Shown piece by piece: positions 26,487 to 35,257 of a DNA stretch of 64,000 nt (its first letter is position 1; every line of letters starts with the position of its first letter). Under the pieces are notes generated by a model that saw only the letters and a program-made list of their open reading frames with translations, searched no databases and was not told where the DNA came from. The position numbers and the translations under genes were made by a program. The stretch is from assembly GCA_024104275.1 (NCBI GenBank), contig JAGGHK010000002.1:171069-235068 (forward strand), in the 5' to 3' direction. This DNA is from Bifidobacterium sp. GTDB lineage: Bacteria > Actinomycetota > Actinomycetes > Actinomycetales > Bifidobacteriaceae.

Positions 26487-26960
26487 AGTCCTAGATTAAC
26501 GCAACCCGGCACACCATGAAAGCCCAAATCGTAAGAGATTGTTTACATTCCGATACCAAACGTTGAGCTGAGGCCCGAAGTAAACCATATATTTGTGCCC
26601 CCTGATGCCTATACTTAATATCTGTTCGCGTGGTTGGTGGCAGCAGCTGCGCCAAGATGATTAGGCAAACGCAAAAGTTCGGAAACATTGGTTTACGGCG
26701 ACGCTGGTCGAAATAATTCCAGCCGTAACTGCAACACGAATCGGCATAGTCCAGTTCCACAATCGATTTCCAACTCTATGCACCGGCTTGATTCGTCGCG
26801 CGGACTCCTCACCTTTCCGCATGCGTCGCCTCAGGCCGCAGAACAGACAAGGTGATTCACGGTGGGTGTTAAGACACAGTTTTCGCGGATTTTCAAAGCA
26901 ACTAAACATTTCAGCGGTTCCCGTAACGATACAGGAAACGGTCTCGGCAATTATCACAAA
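26487..26960. other. 474-base gap upstream of the ABC binding-protein gene
   Basis: No gene is seen. TGGTTTAC occurs at about 26689 and, inverted as GTAAACCA, at about 26580, with a further TTGTTTAC at 26540; these might be half-sites. I looked for a THI-box riboswitch because the next gene resembles thiamine-precursor binding proteins and did not see one. Confidence 0.35.
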
Positions 26961-28037
26961 ATGATACGGAGCACAACAGCAATCATCGGCGCCGCAGCCC
27001 TCGGACTTTCGTTGGCAGCCTGCGGCAACACGTCCGGCAATGGCACTACTACCGACGCCAACGGCAAGCCGACACTAACCTTTATGCTTGATTGGACGCC
27101 GAACACCAACCATGTCGGACTGTATGTGGCCCAGCAGCTCGGCTATTTCAAGGATGCCGGCGTTAATGTGAAAATCCTGCCGACCGCCCAGGCAGGCGCC
27201 GAAACCAGCGTGGAAAACGGCGTGGCCAATATCGGCTTCTCCAAACTGACCGATCTCGCCAACGCCGACGCACATGGGGCCGACCTCAAGCTCGTCTTCG
27301 ACCTGACGCAGAAACCCATCGCGCGCTGGTGCAGCCTGAAGAGCCGCACTGACATCCAGACGCCGAAGGACTTCGCCGGCAAGACCTTCGTCACCTTCGG
27401 ATCGGCCGAGCAGAGCGCTTCGGTACGTCAGATGATCCGTTACGCCGGCGGCAACGGTGACTTCAAAACCGCGACGGCCGGCACCAACACGTTCCGTACG
27501 CTCACGAGCGGCAAAGGTGATTTCGCAGGCTTCTACGCCAACTGGGAAGAAGTGGAATCACAACTCAACGGACCGGCGCTCAACTGCTTCGCCGCCGACA
27601 AATGGGGCGTGCCCGGCAATCCCGACCAGCTCGGTTTCGCAGTGAAGAATTCATGGCTCAAGAATCCGCAGAATGTCGCCAATCTGAGGAAGTTCCTCAA
27701 GGCCGCGCGCCGCGGTTATGACTACGCGCTGGCCAATCCCGACAAGGCCGCCAATATTCTGGTGGCGCAGACCAAGACCTCGCACCTCGACCCGAAACTC
27801 GCCCGCGCCTCGATGGAAAAGGTCGTCAAAGAGGGCTACTGGAGCGGCAACGGCATGGATGACAACTCCACCGACGGCAAGCCCGATCAGAAACTCACGG
27901 CCACGGTCAACACCGAGGACGGCCAGAAGTACCTGGACTTCCAGTACAACGCCGGCACTTACACCGATTCGCATAAGAAGAAGCTCGCCCGCGCGCCCCA
28001 GGCCACCGAGCTTTCAACCAACAAGTACGTGGAATAA
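26961..28037 (+). CDS. ABC transporter substrate-binding lipoprotein, NMT1/THI5-like
   Basis: 358 residues from the chosen ATG. A lipoprotein signal (short basic start, hydrophobic core, lipobox LAAC at about residues 17-20) anchors it outside the membrane. The mature part begins with LTFMLDWTPNTNHVGLYVAQQLGYFKDAGV, typical of the NMT1/THI5 and SsuA-like binding proteins for pyrimidine or sulfonate-type substrates. An in-frame extension to 26862 would bury the signal, so 26961 is preferred although no strong ribosome-binding site is seen. A permease gene follows after 319 bases; no ATPase is adjacent. Thiamine precursor uptake is one possibility; the substrate is not proven. Confidence 0.88.
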   Translation: MIRSTTAIIGAAALGLSLAACGNTSGNGTTTDANGKPTLTFMLDWTPNTNHVGLYVAQQLGYFKDAGVNVKILPTAQAGAETSVENGVANIGFSKLTDLANADAHGADLKLVFDLTQKPIARWCSLKSRTDIQTPKDFAGKTFVTFGSAEQSASVRQMIRYAGGNGDFKTATAGTNTFRTLTSGKGDFAGFYANWEEVESQLNGPALNCFAADKWGVPGNPDQLGFAVKNSWLKNPQNVANLRKFLKAARRGYDYALANPDKAANILVAQTKTSHLDPKLARASMEKVVKEGYWSGNGMDDNSTDGKPDQKLTATVNTEDGQKYLDFQYNAGTYTDSHKKKLARAPQATELSTNKYVE

Positions 28038-28106
28038 GCAAGTTCCCAGCTCGCCTCCTGCAAGGTCCAAAACATTTCATGTGCAAAGTCTCGATTTTTG
28101 AAGCTG

Positions 28107-28180
28107 TTGGCGCGCCAAGAGGGCTAAAAATGGAAGAATCACTCTCAATTTGCTCATTTTCGATTCTCTTGGCGCGCCAA
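28107..28180. promoter_or_regulatory. Paired TTGGCGCGCCAA palindromes (probable operator pair)
   Basis: The 12-bp perfect palindrome TTGGCGCGCCAA occurs at 28107-28118 and again at 28169-28180, 62 bp apart start to start, within the 319-base gap between binding protein and permease. The same palindrome pair with identical spacing occurs at 33506-33579, before another transporter gene. Between the sites the DNA is AT-rich. This looks like a two-site operator for a dimeric regulator, with the permease (or both genes) as target. Confidence 0.6.
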
Positions 28181-28356: not shown

Positions 28357-29175
28357 ATGACAGAGAAACGGCAACACCGAGACGTAACGACGGAACGCTG
28401 GTGGCGCAAGGCGCTGCCGCCGGCCGTCACCATCGGCGTGGTACTGGCAGTATGGCAAGTGGCGGCGAGCGCGCACCTCGTCTCTGAGACCACGCTCGCC
28501 TCCCCTACTGCCATCGTTTCATCGATGATCGCGACCTGGCCCGACCTTATGGCCGCGACCGCCGTGACCTCTGGCGAAGCGCTGGCCGGGTTCGCGATCG
28601 CCGTGGTTGTTGGAATCGCCATCGGCATCGGACTTTATGCCTCGAAAACCGCCAATCGCGGCATCTATCCACTGCTCGTGGCCGCGCAAACCATCCCAAT
28701 CATCACCATCGCACCGCTCTTCATGATCTGGTTCGGCTTCAACCCCGCGGGCAAAATCATTCTTGTGGCCGTTTTCGGCCTCTTCTCCATCGCCGTCGAC
28801 ACCTCGCGTGGTCTGACCGCCGTCCCCCGTTTCTACCAGGACGTGGCATTGACCTGCGGGGCAACAAAGCCGTGGGCGCTGTTCCACGTGAAACTTCGCG
28901 TCGCCGCTCACCAGATTTTCTCGGGCATCCGTATCAGCGCCGCCTACGTTTTCGGCACCGCCGTCACCGCGGAATACCTTGGCGCGACCAACGGCCTCGG
29001 CGTGTGGCTGCAGGGCGCGTTCAATTCCTTCCAAACGGCGATGATCTTCTCCGCCGCCATCGTCGTGGTGGCACTCACCGGCATCCTGCTCGGCTTGGTC
29101 TCGCTTGTCGAACGTCTGTTGCTCGGCCCGCCCGACAAGGATGACGCGATATCGCTGGATGATAGCGAATTCTGA
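28357..29175 (+). CDS. ABC transporter permease (SsuC/ThiX-like)
   Basis: 272 residues, six probable membrane helices. The ABC permease EAA-type loop is seen as ALTCGATKPWALFHVKLRVAAHQIFSGIR, although the usual Leu-Pro after the first part is Leu-Arg-Val-Ala-Ala here. N-terminal helix VTIGVVLAVWQVAA and WFGFNPAGKII are typical of nitrate/sulfonate/thiamine-precursor permeases. It should pair with the binding protein upstream; the ATPase must be elsewhere or shared. A pair of TTGGCGCGCCAA palindromes lies 176 to 250 bases before its ATG, so the permease may be regulated apart from the binding protein. GAAAG nine to ten bases upstream is a weak ribosome-binding site. Confidence 0.9.
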   Translation: MTEKRQHRDVTTERWWRKALPPAVTIGVVLAVWQVAASAHLVSETTLASPTAIVSSMIATWPDLMAATAVTSGEALAGFAIAVVVGIAIGIGLYASKTANRGIYPLLVAAQTIPIITIAPLFMIWFGFNPAGKIILVAVFGLFSIAVDTSRGLTAVPRFYQDVALTCGATKPWALFHVKLRVAAHQIFSGIRISAAYVFGTAVTAEYLGATNGLGVWLQGAFNSFQTAMIFSAAIVVVALTGILLGLVSLVERLLLGPPDKDDAISLDDSEF

Positions 29176-32679: not shown

Positions 32680-33351
32680 CTACTTCACTTCCTTGGCCGG
32701 GTCGACATAGGCGATGTGCAGCATCTCGCCGGTAGCACTGTCGTAGGTGATCGAAGTGATTGAGGCAAGGGCGGTGTGACGCAAGAGCATGTTGTGCTCG
32801 GGATGGCCGGTTTCCAACATATGCCGATAGCTCCAGATCGGCGATTCATGACTGACAATGATGACCTGTGCGCCGGGGTGGTTGCGCACCGCTTCCTGGG
32901 CGAAGTCGCCGACACGCGCGGCGATGTGCTGGTAGCTTTCCCCCCAGCTCGGCCGCCAGAGATTGCGCAGCAACTTGAGGCTTCGCGGTCGCCACAGCGC
33001 GGCTTTGCCGTAGCCGATACGCAGGCCGCGGAATTCGTTGCCGGCTTCGATAAGCCGCGGGTCGGTTTCGATGGAAAGTTCCGCCTCCCCACGGCTTACG
33101 CGCACCGGGTTAAGCTCAACGAGAATCGCCTGTGCCGTTTCGCGCGTGCGATCCAGCGGCGAAGAGTATATCGCCACCGCCTGGTTCATCCGCGCATCCG
33201 ACGCGATATAGCGTCCGCTGGCCTGCGCCATCCGCAGTCCCAACGCGGAAAGGTGGAAGCCGGGAAGGCGCTCGTAGAGTAGGTGATTCGGGTTTTCGAC
33301 CTTGCCGTGACGAACGAAATGCAACGTGGTCTGCTTCTCGGTTGACGACAT
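32680..33351 (-). CDS. Histidine phosphatase family protein (phosphoglycerate mutase-like)
   Basis: 223 residues. The phosphohistidine motif is LHFVRHGKVENP near residues 10-21, with SSPLDRTRETAQAI (second Arg) and IVSHESPIWSYRHML (second His) at the expected places. These enzymes remove phosphate from sugars, nucleotides or proteins; no residues point to a particular substrate. Cytoplasmic. AAAGG six bases before ATG 33351. The paired palindromes at 33506-33579 lie just upstream of its start as well as upstream of the MFS gene, so it could share that control. Confidence 0.9.
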   Translation of the reverse strand: MSSTEKQTTLHFVRHGKVENPNHLLYERLPGFHLSALGLRMAQASGRYIASDARMNQAVAIYSSPLDRTRETAQAILVELNPVRVSRGEAELSIETDPRLIEAGNEFRGLRIGYGKAALWRPRSLKLLRNLWRPSWGESYQHIAARVGDFAQEAVRNHPGAQVIIVSHESPIWSYRHMLETGHPEHNMLLRHTALASITSITYDSATGEMLHIAYVDPAKEVK

Positions 33352-33505: not shown

Positions 33506-33579
33506 TTGGCGCGCCAAGATGCCCGAATAATCAAGAATGAGGGCCTAATCACCGATTATTGCCTAACTTGGCGCGCCAA
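33506..33579. promoter_or_regulatory. Second TTGGCGCGCCAA palindrome pair, same 62-bp spacing
   Basis: TTGGCGCGCCAA at 33506-33517 and 33568-33579. The region lies between the divergent phosphatase (start 33351) and MFS (start 33899) genes. The spacing between palindromes is identical to the pair at 28107-28180, while the 50 bases between them agree at only about half of positions. This argues for selection on the spacing, as with two dimers binding on the same helix face. Confidence 0.6.
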
Positions 33580-33898: not shown

Positions 33899-35257
33899 AT
33901 GCGCTTTATACCCATCTCCGGCATCAAAGATGCCTCCCACCGCCTCTTCGGAGGCTATGCCAAACTTTTGCGCATGCCGCACACCGCGCGCTTCGCCATA
34001 GGCTCGGTCATCGCGTGTATGCCGTTTCCGATGGTCGGCATGACTATCACCATTTCGGTGCAGCATTATTACGGCAACTACACGCTCGCCGGAGCGTTGA
34101 GCGCGGTACAGGCGATCGCGTTGGCGATCATGAGCCCGGTGCTGGGCAAACTGGTCGACAAGTTCGGGCAACGACAGGTCTCGATCCCCACCATCATCGT
34201 CTGGGTCATCGCCGCCACTGCGCTGGTTTCGTGCATCACCGCGTGAGTTCCGGCTTGGATTCTTTTCGTTCTCGTGCCGTTTATGTCGGCGATCCCGCCG
34301 TGGGGCGCGATGTCCCGCAGCCGTTGGACGTATCTGCTGCACGGCGACCGAGTACGCACCGAACGGGCGCTTTCGCTTTCCGGTGTTTTTGACGAGGCGA
34401 TGTGGGTCATCGGCAATCCGCTCTCCTCGACCTTGGCCGTGATTTCCGGCGTGCTCGCCTTCTCTGTGACCGGCATGTGCGTGGTCGTCGGAGCGATGAT
34501 GTTCCCGACCGAGCTTTCCACGGAACCGCCATCGCAGACCGACCTCGCCCGCAAAGCCGGCATCACGCGAAAGGAATATCGCGAGCGTGAGGCGTTGAAG
34601 GCCGCTAAACTGCGCGGACGTGACGAAGCCGCCGAAAGAAGGTCCGGCTTGCTGAAAACCGGTCAGTCCATTTGGGGGCCGGGGCTGATCGCCATGTGCG
34701 TCACCTGGTTCGGGCTTGGCGCCTTCCAGTCGGCCGCTTCGATTTCCATCATCTCGTTCGCCACCGAACAGAACATGAAGCAATATACCGGCTTTGTTTT
34801 CGGATGCTTCTCGCTCTCCTCGATGATCGGCGCGATTTTCTACGGCGCGAAAAACTGGACGATTCCGCTGGGGAAGCGTTTCTACTTCTGCCTTATCGTG
34901 GTGGATCTGGGCATCGGCTCGTTCATGTTCGCCCACAATATCTGGACCATCATGATCGTCTACCTGATCATCGGCGTCTGCCAGGCCCCGACCTGGATCA
35001 ACGGCAACCAGCTGATGCTGCATCTCGTGCCGCCGACCCGCTTCACCGAAGGCATGGCGTGGACCAGCTCGATGAACTCCATCGGCGGTTCGGCAAGCTC
35101 GGCCATCGCCGGCGTGTTCATCGATCGGATGGGCTCGCACGGCGGCTTCCTCGTCGTCACGGTTTTGGCGATAGCCTCGCTCGTGCTTTCGTTCACCGGT
35201 TTCAGGCAAATCAAGCAAAGCACCGAAACGCCGATGCTCACGCAGGTCGAGGTGTGA
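33899..35257 (+). pseudogene. MFS transporter interrupted by an in-frame TGA
   Basis: The frame starts at ATG 33899 (AGAGGAA eleven bases upstream) and encodes four helices of an MFS protein with the loop GKLVDKFGQRQ. It hits TGA at 34244-34246 after SCITA, then continues in the same frame with VPAWILFVLVPFMSA to the stop at 35257. Without the TGA the protein would be 452 residues with 12 helices and a central cytoplasmic loop (RKAGITRKEYREREALKAA). CGA to TGA or GGA to TGA would explain it. The rest shows no other damage, so the event is recent, a sequence error, or tolerated by read-through. Substrate unknown. Confidence 0.8.

Follow-up and report, generated by a model that had tools for sequence, protein, structure and literature searches.

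Five species of one clade of Bifidobacterium each have about 20–25 intergenic arrays per chromosome in which near-identical palindromes are set six helix turns apart. The arrays have a common architecture and helical phasing, lie between genes at loci common to the five species, and have constrained cores whose variable letters are species-specific; two relatives lack them between the same flanking genes. From these features we infer a putative DNA-binding protein, wrapping of the DNA around it, and, from the placement of the arrays, an architectural role. The five species (the carriers, among 112 genomes of the genus) are designated G000, the source of the window (the whole 64,000-nt stretch of DNA analyzed), G054, G134, G131, and G029.

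Palindrome arrays in the window and the source genome

A preliminary description of this DNA reported two pairs of a 12-bp palindrome, each pair 62 bp apart. Both were confirmed (Table 1): the four copies are exact TTGGCGCGCCAA, the start-to-start distance is 62 bp in both array A (28107..28180) and array B (33506..33579), and the window has no further exact copies. Array A has a substrate-binding-protein gene on one side and a permease gene on the other, and array B lies between divergent phosphatase and MFS genes. Array B is 0.91 identical to its G054 orthologue, compared to only 0.43 for the adjacent 50 bp. The MFS gene has an interrupted reading frame in the window; in relatives the frame is open (475 aa in G054, L078:8087-9514; 452 aa in G029).

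Table 1. Parts and neighbors of the two arrays, with a gene lying between arrays in other carriers. Positions are those of the window unless a locus is named.
Feature	Position	Strand	Remarks
Core palindrome 1, array A	28107..28118		TTGGCGCGCCAA; five-species consensus TTGGYGCRCCAA
Interval, array A	28119..28168		50 bp; degenerate symmetric A/T-phased code
Core palindrome 2, array A	28169..28180		62 bp from core 1
Left outer half-unit, array A	28086..28106		Weakly conserved; outward reading CAGCTTCAAAAATCGAGACTT; based on outer flanks of 22 loci
Core palindrome 1, array B	33506..33517		
Interval, array B	33518..33567		50 bp
Core palindrome 2, array B	33568..33579		
NMT1/THI5-like ABC substrate-binding protein (PF09084)	26862..28037	+	Neighbor of array A
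ABC permease (PF00528)	28357..29175	+	Neighbor of array A
Histidine phosphatase superfamily protein (PF00300)	32680..33351	-	Neighbor of array B
MFS transporter gene, interrupted frame	33899..35257	+	Neighbor of array B
DUF559/MTES_1575-like gene	L073:2735-3757, L114:2790-3836, L104:2748-3725, L084		Between dapB and MFS-type gene

In the 2.16-Mb source genome TTGGCGCGCCAA occurs exactly 47 times, and its reversed control not at all; exact pairs with 40–64 bp between them number 21 (0 for the control), and sites with at most one mismatch number 68 (7 for the control). Both the abundance and the pairing are far beyond chance. A second core (≤2 mismatches) is found at 60–63 bp from 45 of the 47 exact copies, all in intergenic arrays; of the other two, one (C12:109873) is next to a run of N, with its nearest core 123 bp off, and the other (C18:14861) has no partner core. 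Where exact copies are 121, 124, or 186 bp apart, the distance contains inner cores with one or two mismatches. The spacing is 62 bp in 32 of the 35 cases counted at 22 loci (61 bp in two and 63 bp in one, with a single 60-bp spacing left out of the count), bearing out the suggestion that a fixed spacing is selected. There is also a 23rd locus, on C2; of its three cores, two have a single mismatch.

Architecture and helical phasing

Across 102 arrays fetched from the five carriers (part of the total) there are 218 spacings: 180 of 62 bp, 29 of 63 bp, and 5 of 61 bp, the recurrence at 62 ± 1 bp in related genomes for which the preliminary description had looked, with two of 60 bp and one each of 123 and 129 bp. 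The two-site arrangement it proposed is found in 11 arrays of G000 (the others there have three cores, in 4, or four, in 6), but the usual unit in the other carriers has three sites (59 of 81 arrays; four in 19, two in 2, and five in 1).

Spacers of different loci agree at about half of their positions, as had been noted for the window (median identity 0.54 over 2293 non-orthologous comparisons), but they have a degenerate, mirror-symmetric consensus in common: core-GWNNCC-N-WWWWW-NNN-AGAATT. The conclusion once drawn from their divergence, that spacing rather than sequence is selected, is not supported, as the spacers carry a phased symmetric code. The outer flanks of the 22 G000 loci have letters of the half-unit out to about 21 bp, and little beyond.

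Averaged over the 136 bp of 56 three-core arrays, the A/T profile has a period of 10.3 bp, and none of 2000 interval-column shuffles was as strongly periodic; these 56 come from the 66 arrays spaced exactly 62-62, the other ten being excluded for odd or mutated end cores. The core-to-core step is therefore six turns (62 = 6 × 10.33 bp). For all 89 fetched arrays with at least three cores, the median periodicity power is 3.13, vs. 0.24 for 247 nearby stretches. Phasing of this kind resembles that of DNA wrapped on protein.

A 13-bp form of the core, with an extra central base (TTGGTG-S-CACCAA), occurs 14 times each in G131 and G029, typically at the ends of arrays; the inner cores of these arrays are mostly 12 bp. 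The arrays at L177 and L178 have the 13-bp type at both ends and a 12-bp center, so that the array in its entirety is one symmetric object.

Distribution among genomes

A search for TTGGYGCRCCAA-N50-TTGGYGCRCCAA (the pair pattern; at most three mismatches) gave 50 pairs in G134, 48 in G054, 35 in G000, 27 each in G131 and G029, and one each in G132 and G002, with no match in the other 105 of the 112 genus genomes; over the same genomes the reversed control gave one pair, in G015. A sequence profile of the three-core array (built from 56 sequences, 136 columns) gave, with both strands counted, 58 matches each in G134 and G054, 52 in G131, 48 in G029, and 47 in G000, including G131 and G029 arrays missed by the pair pattern. 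Outside the carriers it gave six matches in G132, two in G002, and two in G025 that are weak (the better at E 0.002); the remaining 104 genomes had no match, under stricter filters that may lose weak matches. Full array sets are thus present in 5 of the 112 genomes and remnants in three more, weakly in G025. By eye, the G132 pair (upstream of trmD) and the G002 remnant (upstream of a galM homologue) are both at loci with arrays in carriers. The G002 remnants, and probably those of G025, are decayed arrays. The pair pattern had no matches in viral contigs; over 84,980 genomes of other genera, among which near genomes may be left out, pair patterns gave 0 and 1 match, the one (in Atopobacter) being taken as chance.

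Two close relatives, G057 and G048, lack the arrays, which are therefore dispensable in the clade. Of the 24 loci with arrays in G054, 10 have their two flanking genes next to each other in the stretches fetched from G057, and 8 in those from G048; the array profile had no match at E ≤ 5 in those 600 kb. At the two window loci the gap is shorter in G057 than in G054 (217 vs. 376 and 375 vs. 504 bp), and it is clearly shorter at five further loci; at L059, L060, L061, and L065 gap length says nothing either way, because it is similar in both or because ORFs called in the carrier extend into the array.

In a leuB tree (17 rows) the five carriers and nine other genomes form one supported clade, without resolution of the carriers. 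A 13-gene tree of seven genomes, with midpoint rooting, nests the non-carriers G057 and G048 among the carriers with modest support (81/88); unrooted, the same tree puts the carriers on one side of a branch, so that one change is needed and a single gain is allowed. The G132 and G002 remnants at shared loci favor loss of a once wider system.

Genomic placement

When loci are linked by their flanking genes, 25 of the 27 groups recur in two or more carriers, nine of them in all five. The median gap between the conserved neighbors of an array is 365 bp. For 17 of 96 arrays the overlap with a supported ORF call exceeds 30 bp; these calls are probably over-extended or spurious, as a check at leuB suggests, where matches to the called ORF begin near codon 40 in most genomes. 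In G000 the flanking genes are codirectional for 15 arrays, divergent for 4, and convergent for 1 (of 20); over the five species the numbers are 61, 26, and 9 (of 96).

The 38 nearest neighbors at 20 G000 loci (a family could be assigned to all but 5, with some matches below curated cut-offs) include tig, metK, hisD, dnaE, leuA, leuB, leuD, murA, gpsA, trmD, radA, purA, menB, and the genes for pyridoxamine kinase and O-acetylhomoserine sulfhydrylase. They are a mixed and mostly housekeeping set, without the coherent function of a specific transcription-factor regulon. Each pair had been described as lying upstream of a transporter gene. This is true of the two pairs in the window but not of the mixed neighbors elsewhere, and the transporter regulon it implied was rejected, as the genes at recurring pairs are mostly unrelated housekeeping genes.

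The arrays are found over much of the chromosome but may be thinner near the terminus. Among the arrays listed, the one nearest to the point opposite dnaA is 319 kb away in G054 (24 arrays), 269 kb in G131 (18), and 337 kb in G029 (17), with P-values of 0.0006, 0.011, and 0.0024 under a uniform distribution, which are not independent since the loci are shared. A largest-gap test on the same listed arrays gave 90, 641, and 863 of 20000 for G054, G131, and G029. Two arrays each fall in the terminus region as located by synteny in G000 (C11:182k and C11:568k) and G134 (C1:551k and C1:607k). Any depletion is modest.

Constraint and core state

Among orthologous units at least 75% alike, the core columns (20, with Y/R columns excluded) are nearly unchanged: 1 of 500 cells differs between G029 and G131, 6 of 320 between G029 and G054, 4 of 220 between G000 and G134, 3 of 240 between G054 and G134, and 5 of 180 between G000 and G054. 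Interval cells differ in 6–17% of cases across the same five species pairs. The Y/R core columns differ at 1 of 100 cells between G029 and G131 and at 36–43% in the other four pairs. Taking the best-matching array per locus, arrays exceed the adjoining 50 bp in identity in five of six species pairs (for G000 and G134, 0.717 vs. 0.572); in the sixth, G029 and G131, the two are equally alike (0.91 each). Flanks 100–300 bp away, which are largely coding, are 0.62–0.76 alike in the other five pairs, about the same as the arrays.

The variable core letters are species-specific: CGCG in G000, TGCA in G131 and G029, and mixed in G134 and G054. Of 58 cores in G000, 46 are CGCG, 4 CGCA, 3 TGCG, 1 AGCG, and 4 other. 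G134 (72 cores) has 29 CGCG, 20 CGCA, 7 TGCG, 5 TGCA, 1 CGCT, and 10 other, and G054 (76 cores) 24 CGCA, 18 TGCG, 16 CGCG, 12 TGCA, and 6 other. CGCG is absent from both G131 and G029, where the TGCA or 13-bp form accounts for 53 of 58 cores (39 TGCA, 14 of the 13-bp form, 5 other) and 52 of 56 (38 and 14, with 2 TGCG, 1 CGCA, and 1 other). Such agreement at scattered loci would be expected from a trans-acting reader with a shifting preference, while CpG mutability may account for part of it.

Possible roles of the arrays

The reading that we favor, at roughly even chances, is that the arrays are docking platforms for a putative clade-limited, sequence-specific nucleoid protein, and so would act as fixed architectural stations. 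Each would be a preset platform for one nucleoprotein complex. A putative dimeric, sequence-specific DNA-binding protein would occupy the 12-bp cores, on one face of the helix because these are six turns apart; the idea in the preliminary description of proteins contacting one DNA face is thus supported, in the form of a probable trans-acting protein. The mirror-symmetric spacer code, with A/T every 10.3 bp, would bend the ~136-bp unit, usually of three cores, around the complex. The most likely role would be in nucleoid structuring or in supercoil or domain boundaries, and the arrays may also tune neighboring genes; segregation and broad transcription control are other candidate functions.

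A second possibility, unlikely but the strongest of the alternatives, is that an ordinary global transcription regulator uses them as multi-site operators, looping or wrapping promoter DNA, with housekeeping and amino-acid genes as targets. Their location in long gaps between conserved genes (median as above) and seldom between convergent ones is consistent with this, and the low number of convergent pairs (one in G000 and nine overall) would also fit a promoter role. The G000 neighbors leuA, leuB, leuD, hisD, metK, and O-acetylhomoserine sulfhydrylase are plausible targets of such a regulator, and variation of the core state with species also fits. However, the remaining neighbors (tig, dnaE, radA, trmD, murA, purA) are unrelated, though a global regulator does not require one theme; some arrays do lie between convergent genes; and at leuB the array is upstream of a promoter-like element that species without arrays have too.

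Operators of the Lrp/AsnC family have sites about 31 bp apart and wrapped DNA, and the arrays are similar in having dyads every 31 bp, leucine genes among their neighbors, and (as proposed here) DNA wrapping. They differ in that the carriers have no match to the family domain, PF01037: there is none in G000 at E ≤ 0.001, and the 73 of 112 genomes listed with a match do not include G054, G134, G131, or G029. An Lrp/AsnC reader was rejected on these grounds.

As a third possibility, which we consider improbable, the arrays might descend from a palindromic mobile repeat (REPIN- or BIME-like), as old copies that no longer move and are kept or decaying in intergenic DNA. They are indeed intergenic, palindromic, limited to a clade, and, from one relative to another, present or missing between the same genes; there are decayed remnants in G002 and probably G025; and the unrooted 13-gene tree also allows a single gain. 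REP palindromes and dimers are likewise short paired palindromes, most with spacers of 20–100 bp, according to PMC3733652; the arrays differ from these in their fixed six-turn spacing and in having neither stem covariation nor recent dispersal. This reading is disfavored by the lack of dispersed near-identical copies in any of the five genomes, within each of which the best interval identity between loci is at most 0.74. Units within a locus can be near-identical tandem copies (L112:2531-2729 and L103), with interval identity up to 1.00 in G029. Arrays thus grow locally, with no sign of recent dispersal. Loci common to five species, nearly unchanged core columns between diverging spacers, species-specific core states, and arms without stem-loop covariation also argue against a mobile repeat.

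DNA gyrase offers a fourth possibility, and a quite improbable one: that the arrays are strong gyrase sites setting supercoiling. One study (PMC6379681) describes E. coli gyrase sites as a symmetric motif of ~130 bp, with flanks whose 10.75-bp GC periodicity is likened to nucleosomal DNA, and a preference of the enzyme for the intergenic BIME-2 elements. In length (136 bp), dyad symmetry, and A/T-G/C phasing the arrays are similar, which makes this motif their nearest physical precedent. The enzyme is universal, while full array sets are found in only 5 of 112 genomes, and its motif is degenerate, without fixed 12-bp cores at 62-bp steps; both points make gyrase unlikely as the reader. In addition, the period is 10.3 bp in the arrays, and their phasing runs through the center, which in the gyrase motif is a distinct part.

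Finally, transcribed RNA hairpins (terminators, attenuators, or mRNA stabilizers), suggested by the palindromic cores and the 61 arrays between codirectional genes, were rejected and are a very remote prospect, as compensatory base changes are absent, all 500 shuffles pair at least as well (standard pairs are 53.7% for the interval arms and 53.2% across the central core, vs. shuffle means of 57.0 and 57.1%, with both arm pairings below all shuffles in covariation score too), and Rfam matches nothing in the window but four tRNAs. When the partner is slid by 1–3 columns, pairing drops to 35–46%, which indicates that the consensus is symmetric, though the partners do not covary. The spacer symmetry appears to be one of duplex DNA, as read by a protein.

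Comparison to known systems

Two other systems bear comparison with the proposed architectural stations. The nucleoid-occlusion and macrodomain sites of SlmA and Noc are single sites, and are not known to form helically phased multi-core arrays. They are similar to the arrays in being specific and palindromic and in numbering dozens per chromosome, and they thin out near the terminus, as the arrays may also do; unlike them, the arrays have phased multiple cores and patterned spacers, are intergenic, and occur as full sets in so few genomes of the genus. The sopC centromere of the F plasmid is made up of tandem, dimer-bound units, each with a palindromic core, that are regularly spaced. The arrays are similar in layout but have few units each, and there are ~20–25 of them on the chromosome.

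Multi-site protein arrays and intergenic palindromes are of known kinds. What sets the present arrays apart is the combination of near-exact cores at six-turn steps and nucleosome-like phasing in discrete, mostly three-dyad units, at ~20–25 shared intergenic stations that are absent in relatives and have a species-specific core state. No description of such arrays was found in the open-access literature searched. Papers containing the exact 12-mer were, among the matches listed, unrelated by title and the start of the abstract, and the "62 bp" of PMC5746004 is a promoter window.

A bolder form of the favored reading, which we regard as possible but doubtful, is that the arrays are a bacterial counterpart of sequence-positioned nucleosomes: some 20–25 encoded wrapping stations, usually with three symmetric dyads and end-specific sites, served by a dedicated clade-limited reader that co-evolves with the cores, and whose loss would let all of the stations vanish. 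If this is so, a few related species would have chromosome-wide, sequence-encoded DNA-wrapping stations that their close relatives lack, and the role of preset architectural sites could be tested through comparison of carriers with non-carriers and deletion of individual stations. In the differences of core state between species there would then be a natural record of how a DNA-binding protein and its ~55–75 sites evolved together.

Other observations

Three of 22 G000 loci are at leucine-biosynthesis genes: leuA, leuD/murA, and leuB (L022, L026, and L029). This is a hint at regulation, but an after-the-fact curiosity. Just upstream of leuB (L134-L142) there is a promoter-like inverted repeat, GTCCATTTTCCGGACCAAATAGTGGACA, common to carriers and non-carriers, with the same letters in G057, G048, and G015 and single differences in G132 and G002. 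The carrier array sits upstream of this element; at that position G057, G048, G015, G132, and G002 have no array.

In G054, G134, G029, and G131 a gene similar to DUF559/MTES_1575 (below the Pfam cut-off) lies between two arrays (Table 1). The corresponding dapB-MFS interval of G000 (L233, ~2.0 kb) has neither this gene nor a core with one mismatch or fewer, and no match to the gene was found in that of G057 (~11.8 kb) or G048 (~12.7 kb). As a reader common to all carriers the gene fails, unless it is encoded elsewhere in G000.

Between G029 and G054, arrays and flanks at two locus pairs (L101/L068 and L105/L074) are ~0.87–0.97 alike, while most loci are far less so, which suggests recombination between these lineages.
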